Assembly (NCBI GenBank): GCA_021775575.1
Contig: JAJFHO010000026.1
Span: forward strand, 1 to 38,319
DNA length: 38,319 bases
Source: Hyphomicrobiales bacterium
GTDB lineage: Bacteria > Pseudomonadota > Alphaproteobacteria > Rhizobiales > Methyloligellaceae
Reading direction: 5' to 3'
Of this stretch, positions 1 to 27,272 are shown piece after piece (position 1 is the first letter of the stretch; each line of letters starts with the position of its first letter). Below the pieces are notes generated by a model, which did not search any database, was not told the origin of the DNA, and saw only the letters and a list, made by a program, of their open reading frames with translations. The position numbers were made by a program, and so were the translations under genes.

Positions 1-649
1 CGCCGCCGCGGATCGCCGCGATGTTGGCGGCGTAGCGCCCGTCGCCGAAGACCGCGGAACCCGCCACCAGCACATTGGCGCCGGCCTGCGCCACGTCGCG
101 GGCCGTCTCGGGGTTCACCCCGCCATCGACCTGCAGATCGATGGCACGCTCGCCGATCATCTCGCGCAGCCGCGCGATCTTGGCGCATTGCGCGGGGATG
201 AATTTCTGGCCCCCGAAGCCGGGATTGACGGTCATCACCAGGATCAGATCCAGCTTGTCCAGCACATGCTCGATCGAGCGCTCGCTGGTCGCCGGGTTGA
301 GCGACACCCCGGCCCGCTTGCCGAGCCCCTTGATCACCTGCAACGACCGGTCGAGATGCTTGTCGGCCTCCGCATGGACGGTGATGATGTCCGCGCCGGC
401 CTTGGCGAAGGCCTCCAGATAGGGCGCCGCGGGATCGATCATCAGATGCACGTCCATGACTTTTTTCGTGTGCGGGCGGATCGCCTCCAGCACGCAGGGC
501 CCAAAGGTGAGATTGGGCACGAAATGCCCGTCCATCACATCCACATGCACCCAGTCGCACCCGGCTTCATCGATGGCGCGCACCTCTTCGCCGAGCCTGG
601 CAAAGTCGGCCGAGAGAATCGAGGGTGCGATGAGGATGTCAGACGGCAT
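1..649 (-). CDS. rpe: Ribulose-phosphate 3-epimerase (partial, C-terminus off window)
   Basis: The enzyme interconverts ribulose 5-phosphate and xylulose 5-phosphate in the regeneration phase of the CBB cycle and in the pentose phosphate pathway. The reading frame is open from ATG at 649 to the window edge, giving 216 visible codons of a family usually near 220-230, so only the extreme C-terminus is missing. The N-terminus has the typical [16 protein letters not shown]. The metal and phosphate motifs follow in order: [17 protein letters not shown], the flexible loop VNPGFGGQ and the barrel-end QVDGGV. A purine-rich GGAAAGG lies just upstream of the start. It is the last visible gene of the cbb operon, 26 bp behind the CBS-domain gene, so it is probably cbbE and co-transcribed with RuBisCO. 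Confidence in function is high; whether a second rpe copy exists elsewhere cannot be seen. Confidence 0.95.
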
Positions 650-675
650 GAGGGCAACCTTTCCGGTACCTGGCC

Positions 676-1116
676 TTAGCGAAATCGGGCCGCGATGACG
701 CTGTCCTTGAGGACTTTGACCTCAAGTTCGGTTTCCTCGAGGCGGGTTTCCAGCAGGTCGCGGATACAGAGGATACCGACCAGCTCGCCGTCATCCACGA
801 CGGGCAGATGGCGAAAGCGGTGAGTCTGCAGGAGCTTGCGCGCCTGCGCCATCGTATCGTCGCGATTGCAGGTAATCACGTCGCTGGTCATGACGTCGCG
901 CACACGAAGCACATTGGTGTCGCTGCCCCGCTGTGCGAAGGCCGTTACCAGGTCGCGTTCGGAAATGATGCCGACCATTGCGCCTAGCTCGTTGCATACG
1001 GGGAGCGCCCCGATACGTTTGCTGGTCAGCACTATAGCGATCGTCTGGATCGTATCTTCCGGCCTGCAGGTCGCAATATTCTGTTCGAGCTTCTCAAAAA
1101 ATTCACCAACCGTCAT
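676..1116 (-). CDS. Stand-alone CBS-domain pair protein in the cbb operon
   Basis: The product is 146 residues and consists almost entirely of two CBS motifs, roughly residues 8-66 (ending in [12 protein letters not shown]) and 76-132 (containing [21 protein letters not shown]). A short charged C-terminal helix follows. Such tandem CBS (Bateman) modules usually bind AMP, ADP, ATP or S-adenosylmethionine and act as regulatory sensors. No catalytic domain or signal peptide is present. I chose ATG at 1116 because AGGAGGAG sits directly upstream; a longer in-frame extension would overlap cbbS. It lies 25 bp after cbbS and 26 bp before rpe, so it is very likely co-transcribed with the cycle genes. 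By inference it may report adenylate charge to phosphoribulokinase, GAPDH or RuBisCO. It lacks the paired cysteines of CP12. The exact ligand and target are unknown. Confidence 0.88.
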
Positions 1117-1141
1117 CTGCTCCTCCTTTGTTGTCAGGCTT

Positions 1142-1486
1142 TCAGGCCCGGTGGACGACCATGGCCATGCCCTGGGTTTGGTTCTTGCCATCATAGCCGA
1201 TCACCTTGATGTGGTGGCCGGCATAGGCATTCCGGCAGGCGGTGATCTCATTCATGATCGTATCGAGATTCCACTCGCCAAAGAATGGCAGCTTCCACAT
1301 ATACCAGTAGGTCTTGTTGCTGCGCTCCGGCTCGACATGCTCGATGGCGACTTCCCACCCCTTGTCGAGCATCGCCTGTATCTGCTTGCGGATCGCGCCG
1401 GCGTCCATCTCGGCGAGGTATGAATAGGTCTCGAGCTTCCGGCTGTCGGGATCATCGAGGAGGGAATGATAGTCTTGCAATTCCAT
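1142..1486 (-). CDS. cbbS: RuBisCO small subunit, form IA
   Basis: This is the small subunit of ribulose-1,5-bisphosphate carboxylase/oxygenase, which caps the L8 core in the L8S8 hexadecamer. The 114-residue product begins with the green-like signature LQDYHSLLDDPDSRKLETYSYL and contains GWEVAIEHVEP, YWYMWKLPFFGE and the C-terminal IKVIGYDGKNQTQGMAMVV. The length and these motifs fit form IA (proteobacterial green-like). The red-like IC/ID small subunits are longer with a C-terminal extension. The start ATG is preceded by CGGAGAAC at suitable spacing. It lies 37 bp downstream of cbbL, as in nearly all form I operons. No obvious anomaly was seen in the protein. Confidence 0.97.
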   Translation of the reverse strand: MELQDYHSLLDDPDSRKLETYSYLAEMDAGAIRKQIQAMLDKGWEVAIEHVEPERSNKTYWYMWKLPFFGEWNLDTIMNEITACRNAYAGHHIKVIGYDGKNQTQGMAMVVHRA

Positions 1487-1523
1487 TTGACTGTTCTCCG
1501 TAAGGGGTTCGGCGAGCGCCGCG

Positions 1524-2957
1524 TCAGCTTGCGACGTCGAGTTTGTCGACCGTATCGAATTCGAACTTGATCTCTTTCCAGGTCTCCATGGCCGCGGCCA
1601 ATTCGGGGCTGTGCTTGGCGGCCTTGGTCAGGACGTCGCGGCCGTTCTTTTCAACCTCCACGCCCTCGTTGCGGGCCTGAACGCAGGCCTCGACGGCAAC
1701 CCTGTTCGCGGCAGCGCCGGCGGCGTTACCCCAGGGATGGCCGAGCGTCCCGCCGCCGAACTGGAAGCAGGCATTGTCGCCGAAGATCCCGACGAGCGCC
1801 GGCATGTGCCAGACATGGATGCCGCCGGAAGCCACCGGCATGACACCCGGCATGGTGCCGAAATCCTGATCGAAGAACAGGCCGCGGGCGCGGTTCTCGG
1901 GCACGAAACTCTCGCGCATCAGATCGACCCAGCCCAGGGTCGCCTCGCGGTCGCCTTCCAGCTTGCCCACGACCGTGCCCGAGTGCAAATGGTCACCACC
2001 CGACAACCGCAGACATTTGGTCAGAACCCGGAAATGGATGCCGTGCTTGGGATGCCGGTCGACCACCGCATGCATGGCCCTGTGAATATGCAGCAGCATG
2101 CCATTGTCGCGGCACCAGTTGGCGAGCGAGGTATTGGCGGTGAAGCCGGCGGTGAAGAAGTCATGCATGATGATACGGCTGCCCAGCTCTTTGGCGAACT
2201 CGGCGCGCTTGTACATTTCCTCCACCGTACCGGCGGTAACGTTCAGATAGTGGCCCTTGCGCTCGCCGGTTTCCGCTTCCGCCTGATCGACCGCCTCCAT
2301 CACGCATTCGAAGCGGTTGCGCCAGCGCATGAAAGGCTGCGAGTTGATATTCTCGTCATCCTTGGTGAAGTCGAGGCCGCCGCGCAGACACTCATAAACC
2401 GCGCGGCCGTAATTCTTGGCCGACAGTCCGAGCTTCGGCTTGATAGTGCAGCCAAGCAGCGGCCGGCCATATTTGTTGAGCCTGTCGCGCTCCACGGTGA
2501 TGCCGTTGGGGGGACCTCCGCAGGTCATCACATAATGCAGCGGAAAGCGGACATCCTCCAGCCTGAGCGAGCGTAGCGCCTTGAAGCCGAACACGTTGCC
2601 GACCAGCGAGGTCAGCACGTTGACGATCGAGCCTTCCTCGAAAAGATCGATCGGGTAGGCGATAAAGGCATAGTAGCTCTCATCGTCGCCGGGCACGTCT
2701 TCGATCTTGTAGGCACGGCCTTTATAATAGTCGAGGTCGGTGAGAAGGTCGGTCCACACCGTCGTCCAGGTGCCGGTGGAGGATTCCGCCGCGACCGCTG
2801 CCGCGACCTCTTCCTTGGCAATGCCGGGCTGCGGCGTGACTTTGAAGCACGCCAGCAGGTCGGTGTCCTTGGGTTCGTAGTCGGGTTCCCAATAGGTCTC
2901 CCGATATTCTTTTACGCCGGCTTCATATTTGCCGGAAATGTTGGACTTCTTGGTCAT
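1524..2957 (-). CDS. cbbL: RuBisCO large subunit, form IA
   Basis: This is the catalytic subunit that fixes CO2 onto ribulose 1,5-bisphosphate to give two 3-phosphoglycerates. The 477-residue protein has the full active-site set: [10 protein letters not shown] around residue 61, the catalytic TIKPKLGLS (K173 and K175), the carbamylated lysine K199 followed by D201 and E202 in [18 protein letters not shown] around 290-296, the loop-6 lysine K332 in GKLEGDR, and [10 protein letters not shown] near the C-terminus. The N-terminal [21 protein letters not shown] is the form IA/IB (green-like) type. ATG at 2957 has an AGGAGA ribosome-binding site. It is seventh in the operon, 49 bp after fba, so carboxylase follows the reduction and regeneration enzymes. 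No cbbQ, cbbO or cbbX activase gene is adjacent in this window. Confidence 0.99.
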
Positions 2958-3006: not shown

Positions 3007-4092
3007 TTATTCGGCGGCGGCGCGCGCCGCACTGATTTGCGGGTCGAGCGAGCCCTCCGCATAGGACTTGGCCATCTGGCCGAGCGGGATGGCGGTGATC
3101 TTCGAGGCGTTGCCGGCGGTGCCGAACCGCTCGAAGCGGTCGCGGCACAGATCGCGCATGGCGTCGATTGCCGGGATCAGGAATTTCCGCGGATCGAATT
3201 CCTGCGGCTTGTCCTGGGCCAGTTTGCGGAACTGCCCGGTCATCGCCATGCGGCAATCGGTGTCGATATTGACCTTGCGCACGCCGTGGCGGATGCCGCG
3301 CTCGATTTCCTCGACCGGCACGCCGTAGGTCTGGGGCATCGCCCCGCCATACTGATTGATGATGTCCTGCAATTCCTGGGGCACGGAGCTCGATCCGTGC
3401 ATCACCAGATGGGTGTTGGGCAGCTTGTTGTGAATTTCCTCGATAACCCGCATGGCGAGGATGTCGCCGTCGGGTTTGCGGGAAAATTTATAGGCGCCGT
3501 GCGAGGTGCCGCATGCGATGGCGAGAGCGTCGACCTTGGTCCTGGCGACGAAATCGACCGCCTGATCGGGATCGGTCAGGAGCTGGTCTTCCGACAGCTT
3601 GCCCTCCGCGCCATGGCCATCTTCCTTTTCGCCCTCGCCGGTCTCCAGCGAACCGAGAACCCCGAGTTCGCCCTCCACCGATGCGCCGACCCAATGGGCC
3701 ATCCGCGTGACGCGCGCGGTGATCTCGACATTATATTCGTAGGAGGCCGGGGTCTTCATGTCGGCCTCGAGCGAGCCGTCCATCATCACCGAGGTGAAGC
3801 CATGTTGTATCGCCGTCATGCAAGTGGCTTCATCATTGCCATGATCCTGATGCATGCAGACCGGAATCTGCGGATACATCTCGGCCAATGCGTCGATCAT
3901 TTTCGCCAGCATGATGTCGCCGGCATAGGCGCGCGCGCCGCGCGAGGCCTGCATGATTACCGGCGCATCGCAGGCATCAGCGGCCTGCATGATCGCGAGG
4001 CCCTGCTCCATATTGTTGATGTTGAAGGCCGGTACGCCGTAGCCCTGCTCGGCGGCGTGATCCAGCAATTGCCTCATTGATATCCGTGCCAT
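3007..4092 (-). CDS. fba: Class II fructose-bisphosphate aldolase (Calvin-cycle type)
   Basis: The zinc enzyme condenses dihydroxyacetone phosphate with glyceraldehyde 3-phosphate (and with erythrose 4-phosphate in the CBB cycle). The product is 361 residues with class II features: [12 protein letters not shown] near the N-terminus, zinc ligands in MHQDHGND (about residues 79-86), CGTSHGAYK and [10 protein letters not shown], and the substrate-binding [13 protein letters not shown]. The length and motifs fit the Calvin-cycle subtype, often named cbbA. Two ATG codons are adjacent; I chose the one at 4092 because AAGGAG is six bases upstream of it. That start forms a TGATG overlap with the stop codon of pgk, implying translational coupling. 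cbbL follows 49 bp downstream. Function is confident; the exact one-codon choice of start is not. Confidence 0.96.
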
Positions 4093-5330
4093 CATGCACT
4101 CCTTGCCAGTTGATGTTGCTGATTTCGCGCCAGTGCGGCGACGCCTGGTAATTCGCGGCCCTCGAGCCATTCGAGAAAGGCGCCGCCCGCTGTCGAGATA
4201 TAGGTGAAATCCTGCATGACGCCGGCGGCATTCAGGGCGGCCACCGTATCGCCGCCGCCGGCAACGCTTGTCAGCGTGCCCTGTTTGGTGAGCGCTGCCG
4301 CTTCTTGCGCGAGTTTGAACGTGCCGGCGCCGAAGGGTTCGATTTCGAACGCGCCAAGCGGGCCGTTCCAGAGCAATGTACGGCAGTTGCTCAGCCGTTC
4401 GGCCAAATCAGCGACGGTTGCCGGGCCGACATCGAGGATCATTCCGCTCTGGCCCACCGCGTCGATGCCGCAAACCTCGCTCGGGGCGCCTTCGCTGAAT
4501 TCCTCGGCGACAACAACGTCCTTGGGCAGCAGAATCTCGCAGCTCTGTTCGCGCGCCGCCGCGAGAATTCCGGTGGCGGTCTCCGCGAAGTCAGGCTCGC
4601 AAAGCGACTTCCCGACGCCGTGACCCATCGCAAACAGGAAGGTGTTCGCCATTGCCCCGCCAATAATCAAAAAATCGACCTTGGGGAGGAGATTGGTCAG
4701 CACGGGAATTTTGGTCGAAATCTTCGCGCCGCCGACAACCGCCGCGACGGGCCGCTCGGGATTATCGAGCGCCGTGCGAAGGGCGATGATCTCGGCCATC
4801 AGCGCCGGCCCCGCATAGGAGGGCAGCAGACGGGTTATCGCCTCTGTCGACGCGTGCGCCCGATGGGCGGTCGAGAAGGCGTCGTTGACATAGATATCGG
4901 CCAAAGCGCCGAGTGACTTGGCAAAGTCGGTGCTATTGGCTTCTTCGCCGGGATGGAAGCGCAGATTCTCAAGCACCGCGACCTGGCCGTCTTCGAGCGC
5001 GCCGGCAACGGCTTGCGCGTGGGCACCGACGCAGCCCTCGACGAACTGCACGTCGACGCCGGGCAGCATGCCACGCATCGAATCGGTCACGATCTTCAGT
5101 GACATGTCGGGATGCGGTTTGCCTTTGGGCCGGCCAAAATGAGAGACCATGACCACTTTCGCCCCGCGTTCGCTGAGCGCTCTTATGGTCGGCAGGACCC
5201 GCTGTATCCGCGTTGCATCCGTTACCGCGCCGCCGGAAACGGGTACATTGAGGTCGGCGCGGACCAGGACCCGCTTGCCGGCAACGTCAACGCCGTCGAT
5301 CGCGCGCAGATTGTCCAGTGCGTCCTTCAT
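4092..5330 (-). CDS. pgk: Phosphoglycerate kinase
   Basis: The enzyme uses ATP to phosphorylate 3-phosphoglycerate, the first step after carboxylation in the CBB cycle, and runs reversibly in glycolysis. The 412-residue product has the substrate-binding RADLNVP near residue 24, [31 protein letters not shown] and the C-terminal nucleotide motif [13 protein letters not shown]. An upstream extension of the frame is open, but ATG at 5330 matches the family's usual start. That ATG overlaps the TAA stop of gap (TAATG). There is no strong Shine-Dalgarno sequence, so coupling to gap translation is likely. Its own stop overlaps the start of fba (TGATG). Inclusion of pgk inside the cbb operon suggests its level is set by CbbR here. 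Confidence 0.97.
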
Positions 5331-6340
5331 TACAGGAGGCGTCCCATCGCTCCGGCGGTATCGTTCATCCGGTTGGAGAAGCCCCACTCGTTGTCGTACC
5401 AGGACACGACGCGGCAGAAGGTGTCGTCGACGACTTGCGTGCTCGCCAGATCGAAAGTCGAACTCGCTGCATTGTGGTTGAAGTCGGAGGAGACCAGAGG
5501 TTTGTCGTTGACCGCGAGAACGCCCGCCATGCCATTCGCCGCGACTGCGATAACCGCGCCGTTTATTTCCTCGATGCTGGTTTTGCGCTCGGCGGTGAAT
5601 TTAAGATCGATAAGGCTGACATTGGGCGTCGGCACGCGGATTGCGGCTCCGTCCAGCTTGCCGGCCAGCTCGGGCAGCACCAGCCCGACCGCGCGCGCTG
5701 CGCCGGTCGATGTCGGGATCAGGTTGGTTGCCGCCGCCCGGGCCCTGAAGAAATCCTTGTGGAAGGTATCGACCGGGCGCTGGTCGCCGGTATAGGCGTG
5801 AATCGTCGTCATATAGCCGTGGCGAATGCCGATCGCTTCATTCAGGGCCTTGGCGACCGGCGCAAGGCAATTGGTCGTGCAGGAGGCGTTCGAGACGACA
5901 TGATGCTCTTGCGTGAGCTTGTCGTCGTTGACGCCGTAAACCACCGTCAGGTCGGCGTCCTTGCAGGGCGCGGAGACCAGCACGCGCTTGGCGCCGGCCT
6001 CGACATGTTGCGCGGCGGCACTCCGGTCGGTGAAACGGCCGGTGCACTCCATGACGATATCTACATCCAAATCGCCCCAGGGAAGGTTCTCGGGAAGCAT
6101 CTCGGAGAAAACCTGCATGGAGTGGGCTTCGGCAACGAGAGTGCCGTCGCTTGCCGTGATATCGCCGTCATAGCGCCCGTGCACGCTGTCATAGGCGAGC
6201 AGGTGGGCGTTCATATCCGCCGGGCCGAGATCGTTTATCGCGACGAATTCCAGATCGTCGCGCTCCGATTCCAGATAGGCCCGGAGCACCAGGCGCCCGA
6301 TGCGGCCGAAACCATTGATTGCCACGCGAGTCTTGGTCAT
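5330..6340 (-). CDS. gap: Glyceraldehyde-3-phosphate dehydrogenase, type I
   Basis: The enzyme reduces 1,3-bisphosphoglycerate to glyceraldehyde 3-phosphate, the reductive step of the CBB cycle. The 336-residue protein starts with the Rossmann motif VAINGFGRIGRLVLR. It has the catalytic cysteine C154 in SNASCTTNCLAPV, the conserved TIHAYTGDQRPVD, the substrate region STGAARAVG and the C-terminal VSWYDNEWGFSNRM. The residues after the second beta strand read FVAINDLGP. I cannot decide NAD versus NADP preference from this. The start is supported by an AGAAGG sequence just upstream. It is 7 bp from tkt, and its TAA overlaps the pgk ATG. A separate glycolytic copy could exist elsewhere in the genome. 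Confidence 0.97.
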   Translation of the reverse strand: MTKTRVAINGFGRIGRLVLRAYLESERDDLEFVAINDLGPADMNAHLLAYDSVHGRYDGDITASDGTLVAEAHSMQVFSEMLPENLPWGDLDVDIVMECTGRFTDRSAAAQHVEAGAKRVLVSAPCKDADLTVVYGVNDDKLTQEHHVVSNASCTTNCLAPVAKALNEAIGIRHGYMTTIHAYTGDQRPVDTFHKDFFRARAAATNLIPTSTGAARAVGLVLPELAGKLDGAAIRVPTPNVSLIDLKFTAERKTSIEEINGAVIAVAANGMAGVLAVNDKPLVSSDFNHNAASSTFDLASTQVVDDTFCRVVSWYDNEWGFSNRMNDTAGAMGRLL

Positions 6341-6347
6341 TGCCTTC

Positions 6348-8372
6348 TTACTCCCTGTCAGAGTCGATCAGCGCGCGGGCGGCGTCGGCCACCGCGCTGC
6401 TGGTAATGCCGAAATGCTCGTAAAGTTCGCTTGCAGGCGCGGAGGCGCCGAAGCTGCTCATGCCGATGAAGGCGCCGTTCGAGCCGGTCCATTTGTCCCA
6501 GCCGAAGCCGCAGGCCGCCTCCACGCCGACGCACGGCGCCGACCCCAGCACTTTTTCGCGATAGTCGGCCGGCTGGGCTTCGAACAATTCCCAGCACGGC
6601 ATCGAGACCACGGCAACGTTGTGCCCTTCGTCGGCAAGGGTATTCGCGGCCTCCAGGGCCATCGAAACCTCCGAACCGGTGGCGATCAGCGTCACGTCGC
6701 GTGTCACACCCGCCTCGCGCATGACATAGCCGCCCCTGGCGGTGAGATTTTCATCTGTATGGCTATGGCGCAGCAGCGGAAGACTCTGGCGGCTCAGGCA
6801 AAGCACCGATGGCGTGGTGGCGGAGGACAGTGCGATTTCCCAGCACTCCGCGCATTCCACCGCGTCGGCCGGCCTCAGGACGTTGAGGTTGGGTATAGAC
6901 CTTAACGACGCCATATGTTCGACCGGCTGGTGGGTCGGGCCATCCTCGCCGAGGCCGATGGAATCATGGGTCATGACATAGATGACGCGCTGCTCCATCA
7001 GCGCCGACAGGCGAATGGAGGGCCGGCAATAATCGGCGAAGACAAGGAAAGTCCCGCTATAGGGCACGATACCGCCATGCAGCGCCATGCCATTCATGGC
7101 CGCCGCCATGCCATGCTCACGCACGCCGTAATGTATGTAAGTGCCGGAGAAATCGCCGGGCTGCACCGGCACGTGATGAGACGTGCGCGTCCCGTTCGAA
7201 CCCGTCAAGTCGGCGGAACCGCCTACCAGGGAGGTGATGACAGGAACCAATTTCTCCAGCACTTTCTGAGAGGAAACGCGCGTCGCGAGCGCCGGCGCTT
7301 CCCGGGAAAACTCTATCTTGACCGCCTGCACGGCCGCGGCGATTTCCGCCCGGGCAGCGCTGTCAACCGGGTCGTGCAGCCGGGCAAGATCGGCAGCGCC
7401 CAGCTTTTGCGCGCGGCCTTGCCAAGCCGCATGGGCGGTCCGGCTGCGGGTGCCCGCCGCACGCCAGGCTGCGAGGATTGGCGCGGGGACCACGAATTGC
7501 GGACTGTCCCATCCCAGCTCGTCGCGCGCCGCGGCGATTTCGTCGTCGCCCAGAGGCGCGCCATGGGTTGCCGCCGTCCCCTGCTTGGTGGGAGCGCCAT
7601 AGCCGATGACGGTCCTGCAGGCGATGAGCGAGGGTTTTTCGGATGCTTTCGCCGCCTCGAGCGCCCGCCCAATCGCCTCCGGGTCATGGCCGTCGATCCG
7701 GGCTGTTTCCCAGCCCGACGCCTCGAACCGCTTCAACTGATCATCGGACACCGACAAATCAGTCGCCCCGTCGATGGAAATCTGGTTGTCGTCGAACAGC
7801 AGGATCAGTTTTGCCAGTCTCAGATGGCCGGCGAGCGAAATCGCCTCATGAGAGATGCCCTCCATCAGGCAGCCGTCGCCGGCGATCACATAGGTGAAAT
7901 GATCGCAAATATCGTCGCCGTGGCGCGCGTTGAGCAGCCGCTCGGCCAGGGCCATGCCGACGGCGTTGGCGATGCCTTGCCCCAAGGGTCCGGTCGTCGT
8001 TTCGATGCCCGGCGCGTGGCCGAACTCGGGATGGCCCGCGGTTTTTGAGCCGAACTGGCGGAAATTCTCAAGCTGCTCGATATCCATGCTTCGATAGCCA
8101 GTGAGATAGAGCAGCGAATAAAGCAGCATCGAGCCGTGGCCGGCGGAGAGCACAAACCGGTCGCGGTCCGGCCAATCCGGGTGCACTGGGTCGAATTTGA
8201 GGAATTCCTTGAACAGGACGGTCGCAACGTCGGCCATGCCCATGGGCATCCCGGGATGTCCGCTATTGGCCCTCTGCACCGCATCCATCGACAGGGCGCG
8301 GATTGCATTGGCCATGGTCCGTGCGCCTACCGGCATTGTCTGTTCCTCTGCAACAACGGCTGTTTCGCTCAT
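6348..8372 (-). CDS. tkt: Transketolase
   Basis: This thiamine diphosphate enzyme moves two-carbon units between sugar phosphates in the regeneration phase of the CBB cycle and in the pentose phosphate pathway. The 674-residue product has [23 protein letters not shown] at the N-terminus, the ThDP/Mg motif [23 protein letters not shown], and the pyrimidine-domain [19 protein letters not shown]-terminal transketolase domain carries [16 protein letters not shown] at 8372 is favoured over the adjacent upstream GTG because the AGGGGAG sequence is better spaced from ATG. It is 9 bp behind prk and 7 bp before gap, so it is clearly operonic. In this setting it corresponds to cbbT. Confidence 0.97.
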
Positions 8373-8381
8373 CACGCTCCC

Positions 8382-9260
8382 CTATCGCTCTGCACGGCGC
8401 TTTTGTTCGACCAGTTGCAAGATCATCGGCGTCAGGATGAGCTGCATGGCAATATCGAGCTTGCCGCCCGGAATGACGATCGAATTGGCCCGCGACATGA
8501 AGCTGTCGTGGATCATCGAGACCAGATAGGGAAAGTCGATGCCGCTCGGGTTCCGGAAGCGGATCACCACCATCGATTCATCCGCGGTCGGGATCCAGCG
8601 CGCGACGAACGGGTTTGACGTGTCGACCGTCGGCACACGCTGGAAATTGATGTCGGTCTCGGTGAATTGCGGGCAGATATAGTGAACATAGTCCGGCATG
8701 CGGCGCAGCATGGTGTCCATGACCGCTTCGGTCGAATAGCCGCGCACCTCTTTGTCGCGGTGAATCTTCTGGATCCATTCGAGATTGATAACCGGCACGA
8801 CGCCGATCTTGAGGTCGGCATGTTGGGCGTTATTGACCGTTTCGGTGACAACGGCGCCATGGAGGCCCTCGTAAAACAGCAGGTCCGTGCTCTTGGGAAA
8901 TTCGGTCCACTCGGTAAAGGTGCCGGGCGGCGCACCGTAAAGCTCCTCTTCCTCCTGGTCGTGCACATAGTGGCGGGTCTTCCCGGCGCCGGTTTCGCCA
9001 TACGCCTTGAATGTCGCTTCGAGTTCGGCCAGCAGATTCGCCTCGGGACCGAAATGGCTGAAATGATCGTTCCCGGTCTTCTCCTGCTCCGCCATGACGC
9101 GTTTCATGTCGGTGCGGTCGTAGCGGTGGAACGCATCGCCCTCGATAAAGGCGGCGGCGACCCCGTCCCGCCTGAAGATGCGCTCGAAGGTGCGTTTGAC
9201 CGACGAGGTGCCGGCGCCGGAGGATCCGGTTACTGAGATAATCGGGTGTTTCTCGGACAT
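8382..9260 (-). CDS. prk: Phosphoribulokinase, bacterial class
   Basis: The kinase phosphorylates ribulose 5-phosphate to the RuBisCO substrate ribulose 1,5-bisphosphate, a step specific to the CBB cycle. The 292-residue product has the P-loop GSSGAGTSS at residues 12-20, FIEGDAFHRYDRTDM, the acidic HDQEEEELYGAPPGTF and VINLEWIQKIHRDKEVRGYS. The length matches the proteobacterial octameric class, known to be allosterically sensitive to NADH and AMP, rather than the longer plant or cyanobacterial class. The start has GGAG eight bases upstream. It lies 20 bp after fbp and 9 bp before tkt. Together with form IA RuBisCO it establishes autotrophic potential. Synonym cbbP. Confidence 0.98.
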   Translation of the reverse strand: MSEKHPIISVTGSSGAGTSSVKRTFERIFRRDGVAAAFIEGDAFHRYDRTDMKRVMAEQEKTGNDHFSHFGPEANLLAELEATFKAYGETGAGKTRHYVHDQEEEELYGAPPGTFTEWTEFPKSTDLLFYEGLHGAVVTETVNNAQHADLKIGVVPVINLEWIQKIHRDKEVRGYSTEAVMDTMLRRMPDYVHYICPQFTETDINFQRVPTVDTSNPFVARWIPTADESMVVIRFRNPSGIDFPYLVSMIHDSFMSRANSIVIPGGKLDIAMQLILTPMILQLVEQKRRAER

Positions 9261-9280: not shown

Positions 9281-10327
9281 CTAGGTCCGGAACAGGCCGC
9301 GCCTGCTGAACAGGGGCGAGCGATGGCCGGTTGAACGCTTGGTGTCGTGATTGCCCTGCAGCAGTGCCACTTCTTCGCTAGAGCCGAAAATCAGGGGCAC
9401 ACGCTGATGGATGTCGCTGGGCACCACATCGAGAATGCGCATCTTGCCGGTGATGGCGCTGCCGCCGGCTTGTTCCATCAGGAAGGCGACCGGGTTGCCT
9501 TCGTATATGAGCCGCAGCCGGCCTTTGCCGTAACCCAGCCTGTCGTCGCCGGGATAGAGAAAAATCCCGCCGCGCATCAAAATGCGGTGGCACTCGGCAA
9601 CCATCGACGCGATCCAGCGGGTGTTGAAGTCTTTGCCCCGATGTCCTTCGGTACCCTCCAGACATTCGTCGATATAGCTCCGGATGACCTTGTCCCAATG
9701 GCGATAGTTGGAGGCGTTGATGGCGAATTCGCGCGTCTGGGCGGGCACCTGCACATTGGCTTTTGTCAGCTTGAACTGGCCGTCGCCGGGATCGAGGGTG
9801 AAGATATGCGTGCCTTCCCCGAGGGTGAGCACGAGCGCGGTATGCGGTCCGTAGATGATGTAGCCCGCGCCGAGCTGCTTCGATCCGGGCTGAAAGAAGT
9901 GCAGGTTCGCTGACCCGTTGGCCTCCTCGCTGCGCGGCAGAATTGAAAAGATCGTGCCGACCGAGACGTTGGTGTCGATGTTGGAGGAACCGTCGAGCGG
10001 ATCGATGGCCACACAAAGCGGCGCGTCCGGCTTGCCGGTCGCGATCGGCTGGCCGAGTTCTTCTGAAGCAATGAAAGCGACCGGCGACGCCTTCAGCGTG
10101 TCGATCAATTGCGCATTGGCGAGGCAGTCGAGCTCCTTTTGCTGGTCGCCGTCGGAATTGTTGCCAACGATCATGCCCAGCGGGCCGGCCAACTGCCCCT
10201 GGGCAATCAGCCCGGAGATCACCTTGCCAGCGCCGGCAATCGCGCGAACGACCTCGGCGGTCGGCCGTGTATCGCTGGTCTTGGCCCAGTCGTCCAGATA
10301 GCGGTTCAGCGTTATTGACGCTCCCAT
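9281..10327 (-). CDS. fbp: Fructose-1,6-bisphosphatase, class I
   Basis: The enzyme hydrolyses fructose 1,6-bisphosphate to fructose 6-phosphate; in CBB operons it may also serve sedoheptulose bisphosphate. The 348-residue protein has the class I metal-binding IDPLDGSSNID (about residues 108-118), ASEE at 87-90, SNYRHWDKVIRSYIDECL, and RGGIFLYPGDDRLGYGKGRLRLIYE with the sugar-binding residues. ATG at 10327 is preceded by GGAGGACAGGG. It is the first gene of the ten-gene minus-strand operon and is divergent from cbbR, with a 146-bp gap between the two ATG codons. The promoter and CbbR operator should therefore lie between 10328 and 10473. Synonym cbbF. No distinct sedoheptulose bisphosphatase is seen in the window. 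Confidence 0.97.
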   Translation of the reverse strand: MGASITLNRYLDDWAKTSDTRPTAEVVRAIAGAGKVISGLIAQGQLAGPLGMIVGNNSDGDQQKELDCLANAQLIDTLKASPVAFIASEELGQPIATGKPDAPLCVAIDPLDGSSNIDTNVSVGTIFSILPRSEEANGSANLHFFQPGSKQLGAGYIIYGPHTALVLTLGEGTHIFTLDPGDGQFKLTKANVQVPAQTREFAINASNYRHWDKVIRSYIDECLEGTEGHRGKDFNTRWIASMVAECHRILMRGGIFLYPGDDRLGYGKGRLRLIYEGNPVAFLMEQAGGSAITGKMRILDVVPSDIHQRVPLIFGSSEEVALLQGNHDTKRSTGHRSPLFSRRGLFRT

Positions 10328-10462: not shown

Positions 10463-10473
10463 ATTTGGTCGCA

Positions 10474-11460
10474 ATGAAAGAAAAACTTAAAATCGTGACT
10501 GGCCGGATTACACTCAAACAGTTGCGCGCGCTTGATGCGGCGATCCGGGAGGGGACGATTTCCGGTGCCGCTCAATCGCTTAGCGTGACGCCGCCGGCGG
10601 TGACCATGCAAATGCGTCTGCTTGAAGAGACCGTCGGGCTGCCGCTTGTGGAGCGGACGAATGCAGGGTTGCGACCCACTGACGCGGGCCAGGTCGTGCT
10701 TGATGCGGTGCATCGCTGCGAGGCCGCGCTTGAAGCCTGCGGCGATGCGCTTGACGCGCTCAAGGGGACCGGCGGCGGCCGGGTGATCGTCGGCGTCGTG
10801 AGCACGGCCAAATATTTTGCGCCGCGCGCCCTGGCCGCCTTTGCGCGCGCCCATCCCGGCGTGGATGTCCGCCTGTCGGTCGGAAACCGGGGCGAGACGG
10901 TCGCTGCCTTGCAGGATTATGAGCTGGACTTTGCCGTGATGGGGCGGCCGCCGGACGGGTTCGAAGTGGACCGGGCGGTAATCGGCGACCACCCGCATGT
11001 CATTATTGCGCCGCCCGACCACCCGATGGCGGCCCGCAAATCGATTGCCATCGCCGACCTGGCTGGCGAAACATTCCTGCTGCGCGAGGAAGGTTCAGGG
11101 ACCCGGTTGCTGATGCGGCGCCTGTTCGCCGAAGTTGGCCTCGATCCGACGATCGGCATGGAGATTGGCAGCAACGAAACCATAAAACAGGCGGTGATGG
11201 CCGGGCTCGGCGTTGCCCTGATCTCGGCGCATACGATCGCGCCCGAGTTGAGCGATGGCCGCCTTGCGATGCTCAAAGTGGACGGCTTGCCGGTGATGCG
11301 CCAATGGTTTGTCGTCAAACGCCGCAGCAAGGAGCTTCTGCCCGCCTCGCAGGCCTTATGGGATTTCATGGCGGTATCGGGGGCGGAATTCCTGCCCGGC
11401 CTCGGCGCGACCCAAAGCGCCACGGCCACGGTCTCCGGCCCGACGGGCGATACCCGTTGA
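10474..11460 (+). CDS. cbbR: LysR-type transcriptional regulator CbbR
   Basis: This is the activator of CO2-fixation operons; family members respond to cycle intermediates or nicotinamide and adenine nucleotides. The 328-residue product has the N-terminal winged helix-turn-helix (about residues 13-72: ITLKQLRALDAAIREGTISG, then AAQSLSVTPPAVTMQM and LPLVERTNAGLRPTDAG). A LysR substrate-binding domain from about residue 92 carries CbbR-like REEGSGTR and SNETIKQAVMAGLGVALIS. It is divergent from the complete cbb operon, the classical location of cbbR. I used ATG at 10474; a TTG nine bases upstream is also in frame but has no better ribosome-binding site. No clear Shine-Dalgarno sequence precedes either. 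Its end is 6 bp from the convergent mutT gene. Confidence 0.93.
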   Translation: MKEKLKIVTGRITLKQLRALDAAIREGTISGAAQSLSVTPPAVTMQMRLLEETVGLPLVERTNAGLRPTDAGQVVLDAVHRCEAALEACGDALDALKGTGGGRVIVGVVSTAKYFAPRALAAFARAHPGVDVRLSVGNRGETVAALQDYELDFAVMGRPPDGFEVDRAVIGDHPHVIIAPPDHPMAARKSIAIADLAGETFLLREEGSGTRLLMRRLFAEVGLDPTIGMEIGSNETIKQAVMAGLGVALISAHTIAPELSDGRLAMLKVDGLPVMRQWFVVKRRSKELLPASQALWDFMAVSGAEFLPGLGATQSATATVSGPTGDTR

Positions 11461-24867: not shown

Positions 24868-26001
24868 ATGCTCGATGCACCTACCGGAGCCACACCGCGC
24901 CGCTTGCGGGTCGGCTTGGGCGCGCGCAGCTACGATATCGTCATCGGACCGGGTCTGCTGGCCCGCGCCGGGGCGTTGTGCACCGAAGCTGTCGGGCAAG
25001 CGAAATGCGCCATCCTATCCGACGACAATGTGGCCGGGCTGCATGCCGATGCGCTTTGCGCCGGGCTTGAACCGGAAATACCGGTGGCCGGCACGATCAC
25101 CCTGCCGCCGGGCGAGGGGAGCAAATGCTTCGCCGAGCTTGAGAGGATTTGCGGGGAGCTGCTGGACCTCGGCATTGAGCGCGGCGATGTCGTCGTCGCC
25201 TTCGGCGGCGGCGTCGTTGGTGATCTTGCCGGCTTCGCCGCAAGCATCCTGCGGCGCGGCGTCCGCTTCGTCCAGATACCGACAACGCTGCTGGCCCAGG
25301 TCGATTCTTCCGTCGGCGGCAAGACCGGCATCAACATGGGCCAGGGAAAAAACCTGATCGGCGCCTTTCACCAGCCCGCCCTGGTGATCGCCGATACCGG
25401 CTTGCTCGCCACATTGCCGGAGCGTCAGTTCCGCGCCGGATATGCCGAAATGGTCAAATACGGCCTGCTGGGCGATGCCGAGTTTTTCAGCTGGCTCGAT
25501 ACAAACCGCAAACAAGTCTTCGCCGGCGGCGAGGCGCTGATCCAGGCGGTCGAGACGAGCTGCAAGGCCAAGGCGGCCATCGTCGAGGAGGATGAGCAGG
25601 AGCATGGCAAACGCGCGCTGCTCAATCTCGGCCACACTTTCGGCCACGCGCTGGAAGCATATGCCGGATATTCCGACCGGCTGCTGCATGGCGAGGCGAT
25701 CGCCATCGGGATGGCGCTGGCCTTCCGTTTCTCCCATGAGCTCGGCCTGTGTCCGTCGCAGGAGAGCGATCGTGCCATCGCCCATTTCAGGGAGGTCGGC
25801 TTGCCGGTCCGCATCGGCGATATCGCGGGCGAAAAACCGGACAAGGACGCCTTGATGGCACTGATTGGCCAGGACAAGAAGGTCCAGGCCGGGTTGCCCG
25901 CTTTCATTCTTGTGCGCGGCATTGGCGCGGCTTTCATCGAGCCGCGCGTGCCGATGGCCAAATTAGAGGACTTTCTCTCCCGCATGTGTGACCGGCAATG
26001 A
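24868..26001 (+). CDS. aroB: 3-Dehydroquinate synthase
   Basis: The enzyme cyclises DAHP to 3-dehydroquinate, second step of the shikimate pathway. The product (377 residues from ATG at 24868) has the NAD-binding VVAFGGGVVGDLAGFAAS, PTTLLAQVDSSVGGKTGIN, the metal ligands in AGYAEMVKYGLL, LNLGHTFGHALE and LHGEAIAIGM. A GTG at 24853, overlapping the aroK stop, is also in frame and would add five residues; the ATG is preferred only because it is ATG. The 3' end overlaps the next gene by ATGA. This aroK-aroB-CorC order is the usual alphaproteobacterial arrangement as I recall it. Confidence 0.97.
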   Translation: MLDAPTGATPRRLRVGLGARSYDIVIGPGLLARAGALCTEAVGQAKCAILSDDNVAGLHADALCAGLEPEIPVAGTITLPPGEGSKCFAELERICGELLDLGIERGDVVVAFGGGVVGDLAGFAASILRRGVRFVQIPTTLLAQVDSSVGGKTGINMGQGKNLIGAFHQPALVIADTGLLATLPERQFRAGYAEMVKYGLLGDAEFFSWLDTNRKQVFAGGEALIQAVETSCKAKAAIVEEDEQEHGKRALLNLGHTFGHALEAYAGYSDRLLHGEAIAIGMALAFRFSHELGLCPSQESDRAIAHFREVGLPVRIGDIAGEKPDKDALMALIGQDKKVQAGLPAFILVRGIGAAFIEPRVPMAKLEDFLSRMCDRQ

Positions 26002-27272
26002 CACTTGGCCTGATCGTTACCCTTTGCATCATTTGCATATTGATCGTGCTCTCCGCCTTCTTCTCCGGATCGGAGACCGCGCTGACGGCCGCGTCACGCG
26101 CGCGCATGCACGCGCTGGAGCAGGACGGCTCCACGCGCGCCGGCATCGTGAACCGGCTCATGGATATGCCCGAACAGCTTATCGGGGCGATCCTGCTTGG
26201 CAACAATCTGGTCAATATTCTGGCTTCCGCGCTGGCGACGAGCGTTTTTCTGAGCCTTTTCGGCGATGCCGGCGTCGTCTATGCGACGTTGACCATGACG
26301 GCGCTGGTGCTGATTTTCGGCGAGGTTATGCCGAAGACCTACGCGATCACCAATCCGGACCGCGCCGCGCTGGCCGTTTCGCCGATCATTCGCCTCGTCG
26401 TTTCCATTTTCGGACCCGTCACCACGGCGGTGCAGGCCATTGTCCGCTTTTTCTTCCGCCTGTTCGGGCCCGGCATTGATGAAGGATTGGCGGTGCTGTC
26501 GGCGCATGAGGAAATCAGGGGCGCCATTGCGCTGCACCACAAGGAAGGCGGCGTGGTCAAGCATGACCGCGACATGCTCGGCGGCGTACTGGACCTCACC
26601 GACATGGAGGTCGAGGACATCATGATCCACCGCACCGACATGGTGGCGATCAACGTCGCCGACGCGCCGCAGTCGATCATCGATCAGATTCTGGAGAGCC
26701 CCTACACCCGCCTGCCGCTGTGGCAGGACGAGCCGGAGAATATTGTCGGCATCCTGCACGCCAAGACTATTCTCAAGGCGCTCAAGGCCGCTGGCGGCGA
26801 CGCGTCGAAACTCGACATGACGGAGCTCTGCGTGCCGCCCTGGTTCGTGCCCGATACAACGCCGCTGAAACGCCAGCTCAACAACTTCCTGCGCCGCAAG
26901 ACGCATTTTGCCCTTGTCGTCGACGAATATGGCGAGGTGCAGGGGCTGGTGACGCTGGAAGACATATTGGAGGAAATCGTCGGTGACATCGCCGATGAGC
27001 ATGACATCCTGGACGAAGGCATTCGCCCGCAGAGCGACGGCACGGTCAATGTCGACGGCTCGGTGCCCGTGCGCGACCTCAACCGCTTCATGGACTGGGA
27101 TCTGGACGACGAGGAAGCAACCACGATCGCCGGTCTGGTGATTCACAAGGCACAAACGATTCCGCAGCCGGGTCAGGCCTTCACCTTCGAGGGCTTCCGT
27201 TTTGAAATAACCCACCGCGAGAAGAACAAGGTCACCGGGCTGAAGGTCACGCCGCTGAAAGCGAGCGCATAG
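25998..27272 (+). CDS. CorC/HlyC-type (CNNM-family) transporter-associated protein
   Basis: This is a membrane protein of the CNNM/CorB/UPF0053 group, usually linked to Mg2+ (or Co2+) efflux or homeostasis. The 424-residue product has a DUF21/CNNM transmembrane domain (about residues 5-195) with FFSGSETALTAASRAR and FGEVMPKTYAITNP. Two CBS motifs follow (about 205-330, including IMIHRTDMVAINV and FALVVDEYGEVQGLVTLEDILEEIVGDI), then a C-terminal CorC_HlyC domain (about 345-424). The CBS pair of this family binds ATP-Mg. Its ATG overlaps the aroB stop (ATGA), so it is translated from the aro transcript. Exact ion specificity is unknown; the hemolysin name is historical. Confidence 0.92.
   Translation: MTLGLIVTLCIICILIVLSAFFSGSETALTAASRARMHALEQDGSTRAGIVNRLMDMPEQLIGAILLGNNLVNILASALATSVFLSLFGDAGVVYATLTMTALVLIFGEVMPKTYAITNPDRAALAVSPIIRLVVSIFGPVTTAVQAIVRFFFRLFGPGIDEGLAVLSAHEEIRGAIALHHKEGGVVKHDRDMLGGVLDLTDMEVEDIMIHRTDMVAINVADAPQSIIDQILESPYTRLPLWQDEPENIVGILHAKTILKALKAAGGDASKLDMTELCVPPWFVPDTTPLKRQLNNFLRRKTHFALVVDEYGEVQGLVTLEDILEEIVGDIADEHDILDEGIRPQSDGTVNVDGSVPVRDLNRFMDWDLDDEEATTIAGLVIHKAQTIPQPGQAFTFEGFRFEITHREKNKVTGLKVTPLKASA

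Follow-up and report, generated by a model that had tools for sequence, protein, structure and literature searches.

P0001, the 146-residue CBS-pair protein encoded in the Calvin-cycle operon described here, is read with just under even confidence as a free CBS-pair adenylate sensor of sulfur-oxidising-type Hyphomicrobiales, the gene of which lies in the cbb operon in one lineage. The initial annotation had proposed a free adenylate-sensing subunit that controls phosphoribulokinase (PRK), GAPDH or RuBisCO, and this proposal stands in part: a free CBS pair is indeed present in a form IA Calvin operon, but the tighter link of its subfamily is with APS reductase and not with RuBisCO. Free CBS-pair sensors are a kind already known, while a setting in a Calvin operon was not found in the open-licence literature searched. 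If the reading is true, a free nucleotide-sensing subunit would be located inside a proteobacterial Calvin operon, forming a control layer beyond the known CbbR, PRK-effector, CbbX/CbbQO and CP12 systems.

The window (the whole stretch of DNA that was analysed, 38,319 nucleotides) is the complete contig C169 of a 4.06 Mb genome in 281 contigs. Its minus strand carries an operon in the order fbp-prk-tkt-gap-pgk-fba-cbbL-cbbS-CBS-rpe, with cbbR divergent. The names gap, pgk and rpe were given by reading, these three having no HMM call. The features are:

1..649, minus strand: rpe, ribulose-phosphate 3-epimerase, 216 codons held, running to the contig end (reading and homologues)
650..675, minus strand: spacer between the CBS gene and rpe, 26 bp (sequence)
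676..1116, minus strand: CBS-pair protein P0001, 146 aa (ORF, Pfam, model, alignment)
1117..1141, minus strand: spacer between cbbS and the CBS gene, 25 bp, with an AGGAGG ribosome-binding site (sequence)
1142..1486, minus strand: cbbS, RuBisCO small chain (PF00101)
1524..2957, minus strand: cbbL, RuBisCO large chain, form IA-like (HMM, clustering; nearest solved chains 7smk and 1svd)
3007..4095, minus strand: fba, class II fructose-bisphosphate aldolase (TIGR01521)
4092..5330, minus strand: pgk, phosphoglycerate kinase, likely ATG at 5330, ORF opening at 5387 (reading)
5330..6340, minus strand: gap, glyceraldehyde-3-phosphate dehydrogenase (reading)
6348..8375, minus strand: tkt, transketolase (TIGR00232)
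8382..9260, minus strand: prk, class I phosphoribulokinase (NF011997; alignment with 1a7j)
9281..10327, minus strand: fbp, class 1 fructose-bisphosphatase (NF006780)
10465..11460, plus strand: cbbR, divergent LysR regulator (NF045990, CbbR, is the best NCBIfam model, with 372 bits, under its cut-off of 450)

The placement of a 146-residue CBS protein between cbbS and rpe, with gaps of 25 and 26 bp, is thus borne out by the sequence. The operon had been called complete; it is a form IA Calvin operon with a free CBS protein, but rpe runs into the contig end. Form IA is the name that we take to apply to the class of this cbbL. The spacer preceding the ATG of P0001 reads AAGCCTGACAACAAAGGAGGAGCAG and has the ribosome site inside it. 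The region from 500 to 1700 showed no promoter-like site on the plus or the minus strand, nor any terminator-like site on the minus strand, which is weak evidence. The window contains a second CBS pair at 25998-27269, in a CNNM/CorC-type membrane protein that is unrelated to P0001.

Comparison of P0001 with its 76% identical orthologue in Bacterium BMS3Bbin10 (G006) gives a dN of 0.137 and a dS of 0.589, and P0001 is therefore a selected protein, under purifying selection. The ORF list also holds a 172-residue form starting at an upstream ATG within cbbS; the MTVG start of the 146-residue form is common to both close orthologues. In a Pfam search, P0001 matches CBS only, in two stretches (PF00571, 102 bits with the cut-off at 24). 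The AlphaFold model, built on a 22-sequence alignment, has a pLDDT of 88.7 and consists of two CBS units followed by a single helix at residues 118-144. The protein had been described as only two CBS motifs, which is right in so far as CBS is its sole Pfam family, but leaves out this 27-residue C-terminal helix with its subfamily-specific tail. Among solved structures, the model is closest to Atu1752 (3fhm; TM 0.79-0.93, rmsd 1.4, 33% identity). Further matches are NE2398, ST2348, AcuB with AMP, ADP, ATP or Ap4A, and CBSX2 with AMP. This structure comparison upholds the expectation of an adenylate-type pair, as the fold of the P0001 model is that of CBS pairs that bind adenine nucleotides. Most likely, P0001 is a putative reader of the adenylate pool (AMP versus ADP/ATP).

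The motif of CBS1 is GIISERD (residues 49-55) and that of CBS2 is GILCIRD (114-120). In CBS1 domains, G-x-x-S-x-x-D is the ribose/phosphate motif, and GIISERD retains it. Alignment A3 comprises 24 rows (16 from the clade described below and 8 from outside it). At residue 117, in CBS2, P0001 has Cys, whereas the 23 other proteins aligned all have Ser. With Cys in place of Ser, one of the two predicted ligand sites of P0001 may be altered. Two other cysteines stand out in the same alignment: C17 occurs in all 16 clade rows versus 1 of 8 outside rows, and C83 in 23 of the 24. C17 is therefore a possible candidate for a subfamily-specific thiol. These residues would suit a sensor of redox state or NAD(H) like Atu1752 or the CBSX proteins, working via thioredoxin-like partners or NADH binding, as would the closest fold being that of Atu1752 and the presence of a redoxin gene after rpe in a second Calvin cluster (G045). 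However, the Atu1752-like proteins form a different tree group, the window operon has no redoxin gene, and it is guesswork that C17 and C83 serve as functional thiols. Such a sensor is considered very unlikely.

CBS pairs as such are universal in the genomes searched, with matches at E ≤ 1e-3 in 61 of 61 genomes (own genome included) and 34 CBS domain matches in the own genome. P0001 itself belongs to a small and rare subfamily, named CRPEDT here after its CBS1 motif. It falls in the clade, has the CRPEDT-like start of CBS1 and carries the ELExNVLxDxxIAAR-like tail. In a survey of the order, 19 of 397 genomes match P0001 at E ≤ 1e-30. In a 45-row tree, 17 proteins from 16 of these 19 genomes form one clade with a support of 98/91, G077 having two proteins. 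The remaining three (G066, G129 and G152) match at this threshold yet fall outside the clade, and so do all five weaker matches that were added (G031, G049, G038, G030 and G058; E 2e-30 to 4e-28). The next-closest CBS pair of the own genome, on contig C247, groups with the common alphaproteobacterial type, outside the clade of P0001. In a survey of the class (385 genomes), two pass E ≤ 1e-32, namely the window genome and G715, which lies outside the clade. When the named genome collection is scanned by pattern, the same two close orthologues appear, in Bacterium BMS3Bbin10 (76%) and Hyphomicrobiales MAG S144_23 (61%), the next best being at 48%. Spread of the gene by plasmid was considered and rejected. 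On plasmids, 492 records match, with a top identity of 44% over most of the query among the best 40 of the 492. Three plasmid form I cbbLS neighbourhoods, from the best 10 of 122 records, show no annotated CBS gene in an incomplete gene table.

The CBS gene is found in different neighbourhoods across the 16 carriers: in the Calvin cluster in 3, downstream of sulfite-oxidation genes in 3, and near neither in 10. The Calvin-cluster carriers are the window genome, Bacterium BMS3Bbin10 and the Hyphomicrobiales MAG (G045). They belong to two families, and their proteins form a sub-clade with a support of 100/95. In all three, the CBS gene lies directly upstream of rpe, and in two of them it is adjacent to cbbS. 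The order in BMS3Bbin10 is tkt-fba-cbbL-cbbS-CBS-rpe. One contig of the MAG carries a CbbO-like VWA protein, a class II aldolase with a Dabb domain, CBS, rpe, the redoxin and a CbbY-like HAD protein, the CbbO and CbbY names being given by reading; another contig carries cbbL, a gene for CbbQ (PF08406) and the beginning of a CbbO-like gene. Since the end of that gene overlaps the first contig in translation, with no exact DNA overlap, the order cbbLSQO-fba-CBS-rpe was inferred for this genome, with cbbS placed by inference and having no call. The spacers are looser here, with 555 bp to the aldolase and 230 bp to rpe. The aldolase of this cluster (L040:3794-5110), class II with a fused Dabb (stress A/B barrel) domain, is an observation in its own right.

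In the other 13 carriers, no query of the Calvin set besides CBS matches at E ≤ 1e-10, the stretches around the CBS gene measuring 10.5-19.5 kb, some of them shorter on one flank because the contig ends there. Among the closest relatives of the window RuBisCO, G031 and G193 run from cbbS to rpe without a CBS gene, and G085 has none by cbbS. In two carriers of family f23 (G188 and G405), the CBS gene comes after aprB-aprA plus three small genes on the same strand; in a third (G051), it lies downstream of Qmo/Hdr-like genes on the same strand, where the Hdr models score under their cut-offs and the Qmo name was given by reading. Five carriers of family f12 have it near genes read as groES/groEL, of which G087 shows groES only. 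Three small genes directly after aprBA were observed in three genomes (L172:7846-9122, L171:7827-9028 and L179:3550-4775). They encode proteins of 139 aa, 175 aa (SlyD/FKBP-like) and 82 aa, and the 139- and 175-residue proteins have no Pfam match at E ≤ 1e-5.

The neighbourhood search thus confirms a linkage to cbb genes in three genomes of two families that form one clade, but in only 3 of the 16 carriers. The idea that wide scattering and lack of linkage would count against a Calvin role is therefore half realised: the gene is linked in 3 of 16, yet its distribution is far from random. Within the order sample, the CRPEDT subfamily is present only in genomes that bear AprA. AprA occurs in 16 of 16 carriers versus 38 of 317 genomes of the order, these 317 being taken as part of the 397. 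All 15 carriers within the 317-genome draw are AprA-positive, with a hypergeometric probability of 9e-16 by genomes, a statistic that ignores kinship, no species tree being used. By family, the probability is about 0.001 (8 carrier families from 24 AprA-positive families of at most 52), a value that rises if the draw has fewer families, the families having been counted by hand. The AprA family model (TIGR02061) was applied to the G405 query alone, and six carrier matches are 48-51% identical to that query. One of these, in BMS3Bbin10, lies beside AprB and Qmo-like genes, and a Sat-like ORF, named by reading, is situated between the Qmo-like and apr genes of this genome. In the window genome, AprA is a 145-residue end piece at a contig end, beside AprB. 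Of the 38 AprA-positive genomes (of 317), 23 have no subfamily member at E ≤ 1e-30; one of these 23, G066, does match at this level, but outside the clade. Compared with the query, full-length AprA matches in the order fall at about 80-95%, 71-72% or 48-51% identity, which suggests that the APS pathway there has multiple origins.

RuBisCO shows a weaker association. A large chain is present in 13 of 16 carriers and absent from G076, G113 and G154. Nine of the carrier RuBisCOs are form IA by clustering (80-100% identity to the window); of the rest, that of G054 (59%) was taken as form IC, those of G051 and G123 (32-33%) were taken as form II, and that of G181 is a fragment. The hosts of CRPEDT proteins are sulfur-oxidising-type, mostly RuBisCO-bearing Hyphomicrobiales. 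The subfamily occurs in 9 of 18 form IA genomes versus 7 of 379 others (Fisher 8e-10), the other 9 of the 18 (of 397) having no member at E ≤ 1e-30. Within the AprA-positive set, the form IA effect shrinks to 8 of 12 versus 7 of 26 (p 0.03), and AprA is therefore the better correlate. Form IA RuBisCO as the driver was rejected on these grounds, its association being strong but its extra effect within the AprA-positive set being lesser. A near RuBisCO was found in 5 of 385 genomes of the class survey, including the window genome, and none of the 4 such genomes outside the order has a member at E ≤ 1e-32.

These distributions bear on the target. P0001 could be a general energy or stress sensor acting on something other than the Calvin cycle, such as the Qmo complex or the enzymes of the APS pathway; its place among the cbb genes would then reflect autotrophic co-expression only. 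The better correlation with AprA (16 of 16 carriers) speaks for this, as do the three genomes with the CBS gene by apr or Qmo/Hdr-like genes and the 10 of 16 carriers with the gene near neither set, including the five with groES/groEL nearby. However, the three cbb-linked genomes keep the CBS gene beside rpe in two operon layouts, and RuBisCO is present in 13 of 16 carriers, so that this explanation is regarded as possible but doubtful. Even with a non-Calvin target, a subfamily that is restricted to AprA-bearing genomes in the sample would still give this otherwise anonymous CBS protein a narrow hypothesis and a marker that can be tested.

Another explanation is control as by the cyanobacterial CBS-CP12 proteins, with AMP-loaded P0001 inhibiting PRK, or PRK and GAPDH. 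The window PRK belongs to class I (NF011997) and retains R31, R49, R187, R234 and R257, which we take to be the residues of PRK's own NADH/AMP allosteric site. As the enzyme is of class I and keeps these putative allosteric arginines, PRK is not an obvious target of P0001, and the suggestion that it is one is weakened. Class I bacterial PRK is by itself subject to inhibition by AMP and activation by NADH, according to PMC4806589. The absence of CP12, as initially noted, holds: the 146 residues of P0001 have no CP12 Pfam match and no AWD_VEEL core with Cys pairs, and this also speaks against the explanation. In its favour are the presence of prk, and by reading gap, in the same operon, and the precedent of CBS-CP12, which binds AMP and hinders the activation of PRK by thioredoxin, as stated in PMC9406205. 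On balance, control of PRK is very unlikely. Since PRK is of the self-regulated kind, RuBisCO or Rpe ranks above it, and on operon position alone either is a more likely Calvin target than PRK.

With RuBisCO as a candidate target, a role of P0001 in place of an activase was considered as well. The window genome yielded no CbbX, a result for which no positive control exists, as none of 14 control genomes exceeds the cut-off either. Searches of the drafts G000, G006, G085, G031 and G193 for CbbQ and CbbO gave no match at E ≤ 1e-20; G045, the source of the queries, did match. Form IA RuBisCO without a recognised activase was thus observed in five drafts, the own genome included, with RuBisCOs at least 89% identical to that of the window (loci: window 1142-2957, L039, L155, L156 and L157). 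P0001 as a replacement for the activase was rejected, because CbbQO and CBS show no either/or pattern: G045 has both CbbQO and CBS, and G031, G085 and G193 show neither CbbQO nor an operon CBS.

The preferred reading, a free adenylate sensor recruited to the cbb operon in one lineage, starts from the observed fold family, operon, clade, selection and association with AprA and RuBisCO; dimer, ligand, partner and sign of control are its inferred parts. Counting against it are the ten carriers with the gene near neither cbb nor apr genes, the form IA and AprA-positive genomes that have no member, the genomes outside the order with a near RuBisCO but no member, the nearest RuBisCO relatives with no CBS gene by cbbS, the Cys in CBS2 and the looser spacing in G045. 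In one lineage, the CBS gene would have moved into the Calvin operon, so as to be made together with RuBisCO and the epimerase. P0001 would dimerise via Bateman discs, and AMP or ATP in the clefts would set the position of the C-terminal helix with its ELExNVLxDxxIAAR tail. The helices might then dock onto one of the Calvin enzymes, more likely RuBisCO or Rpe than PRK, and docking would slow CO2 fixation as the energy charge drops. Oxidative AprBA, which would oxidise sulfite in these organisms, uses AMP, and Sat then makes ATP. AMP/ATP would therefore report directly on the supply of electron donor. Because the subfamily occurs, among the sampled relatives, only in genomes that have this AMP-using enzyme of sulfur oxidation, P0001 may tie CO2 fixation to the energy state. 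A bolder and unlikely extension holds that CRPEDT proteins as a group are energy-charge sensors of APS-pathway sulfur lithoautotrophs, in which a free CBS dimer gates RuBisCO or the epimerase in an AMPK-like manner. The consumption of AMP by sulfite oxidation would then link electron-donor supply to CO2 fixation after transcription. If the preferred reading is true, CO2 fixation would be tied to an AMP/ATP balance set by sulfur oxidation.

The open-licence literature yielded no paper placing a CBS-domain protein in a cbbL/cbbS operon or in an alphaproteobacterial Calvin/RuBisCO operon. A CBS domain together with aprA, sulfur oxidation and RuBisCO was not found among the matches listed; no paper was found for the 3FHM CBS, an Agrobacterium CBS-NADH structure or BMS3Bbin10, and Atu1752 was absent among the matches listed. 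Several known CBS systems can nevertheless be compared with P0001. Atu1752 (PDB 3fhm) has the same size and fold at 33% identity, and its crystal presumably holds AMP and NADH. However, the common Atu1752-like pairs form a separate tree group, Atu1752 itself not being a row of the tree. In these common pairs, CBS2 contains SIGD and the tail is EAMR-like, in contrast to the clade, where 14 of 16 A3 rows have SIRD or CIRD (two have SIGD) with an ELExNVLxDxxIA-like tail. Plant CBSX1 and CBSX2 are stand-alone CBS pairs as well, CBSX2 having an AMP-bound structure (4gqy), and are proposed modulators of chloroplast thioredoxins (PMC7921703). They differ from P0001 in being plastid proteins with other targets, at 26-30% identity. 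CBS-CP12 of cyanobacteria (PDB 5nmu) has the CBS pair and the Calvin-cycle setting in common with P0001, with a sequence match at E 1.1e-9. It belongs to another phylum, however, and the CP12 part, the hexamer and the thioredoxin link are features of CBS-CP12, the first of which P0001 does not have. AcuB of Bacillus and Geobacillus is likewise a free, operon-encoded CBS pair. This Bateman protein binds AMP, ADP, ATP and Ap4A and controls a partner, inhibiting AcuC when AMP-bound (PMC13121692) and responding to Ap4A as well (PMC13039410). While AcuB contacts AcuC through a C-terminal ACT domain, P0001 has no ACT domain and ends at residue 146 in a long helix.
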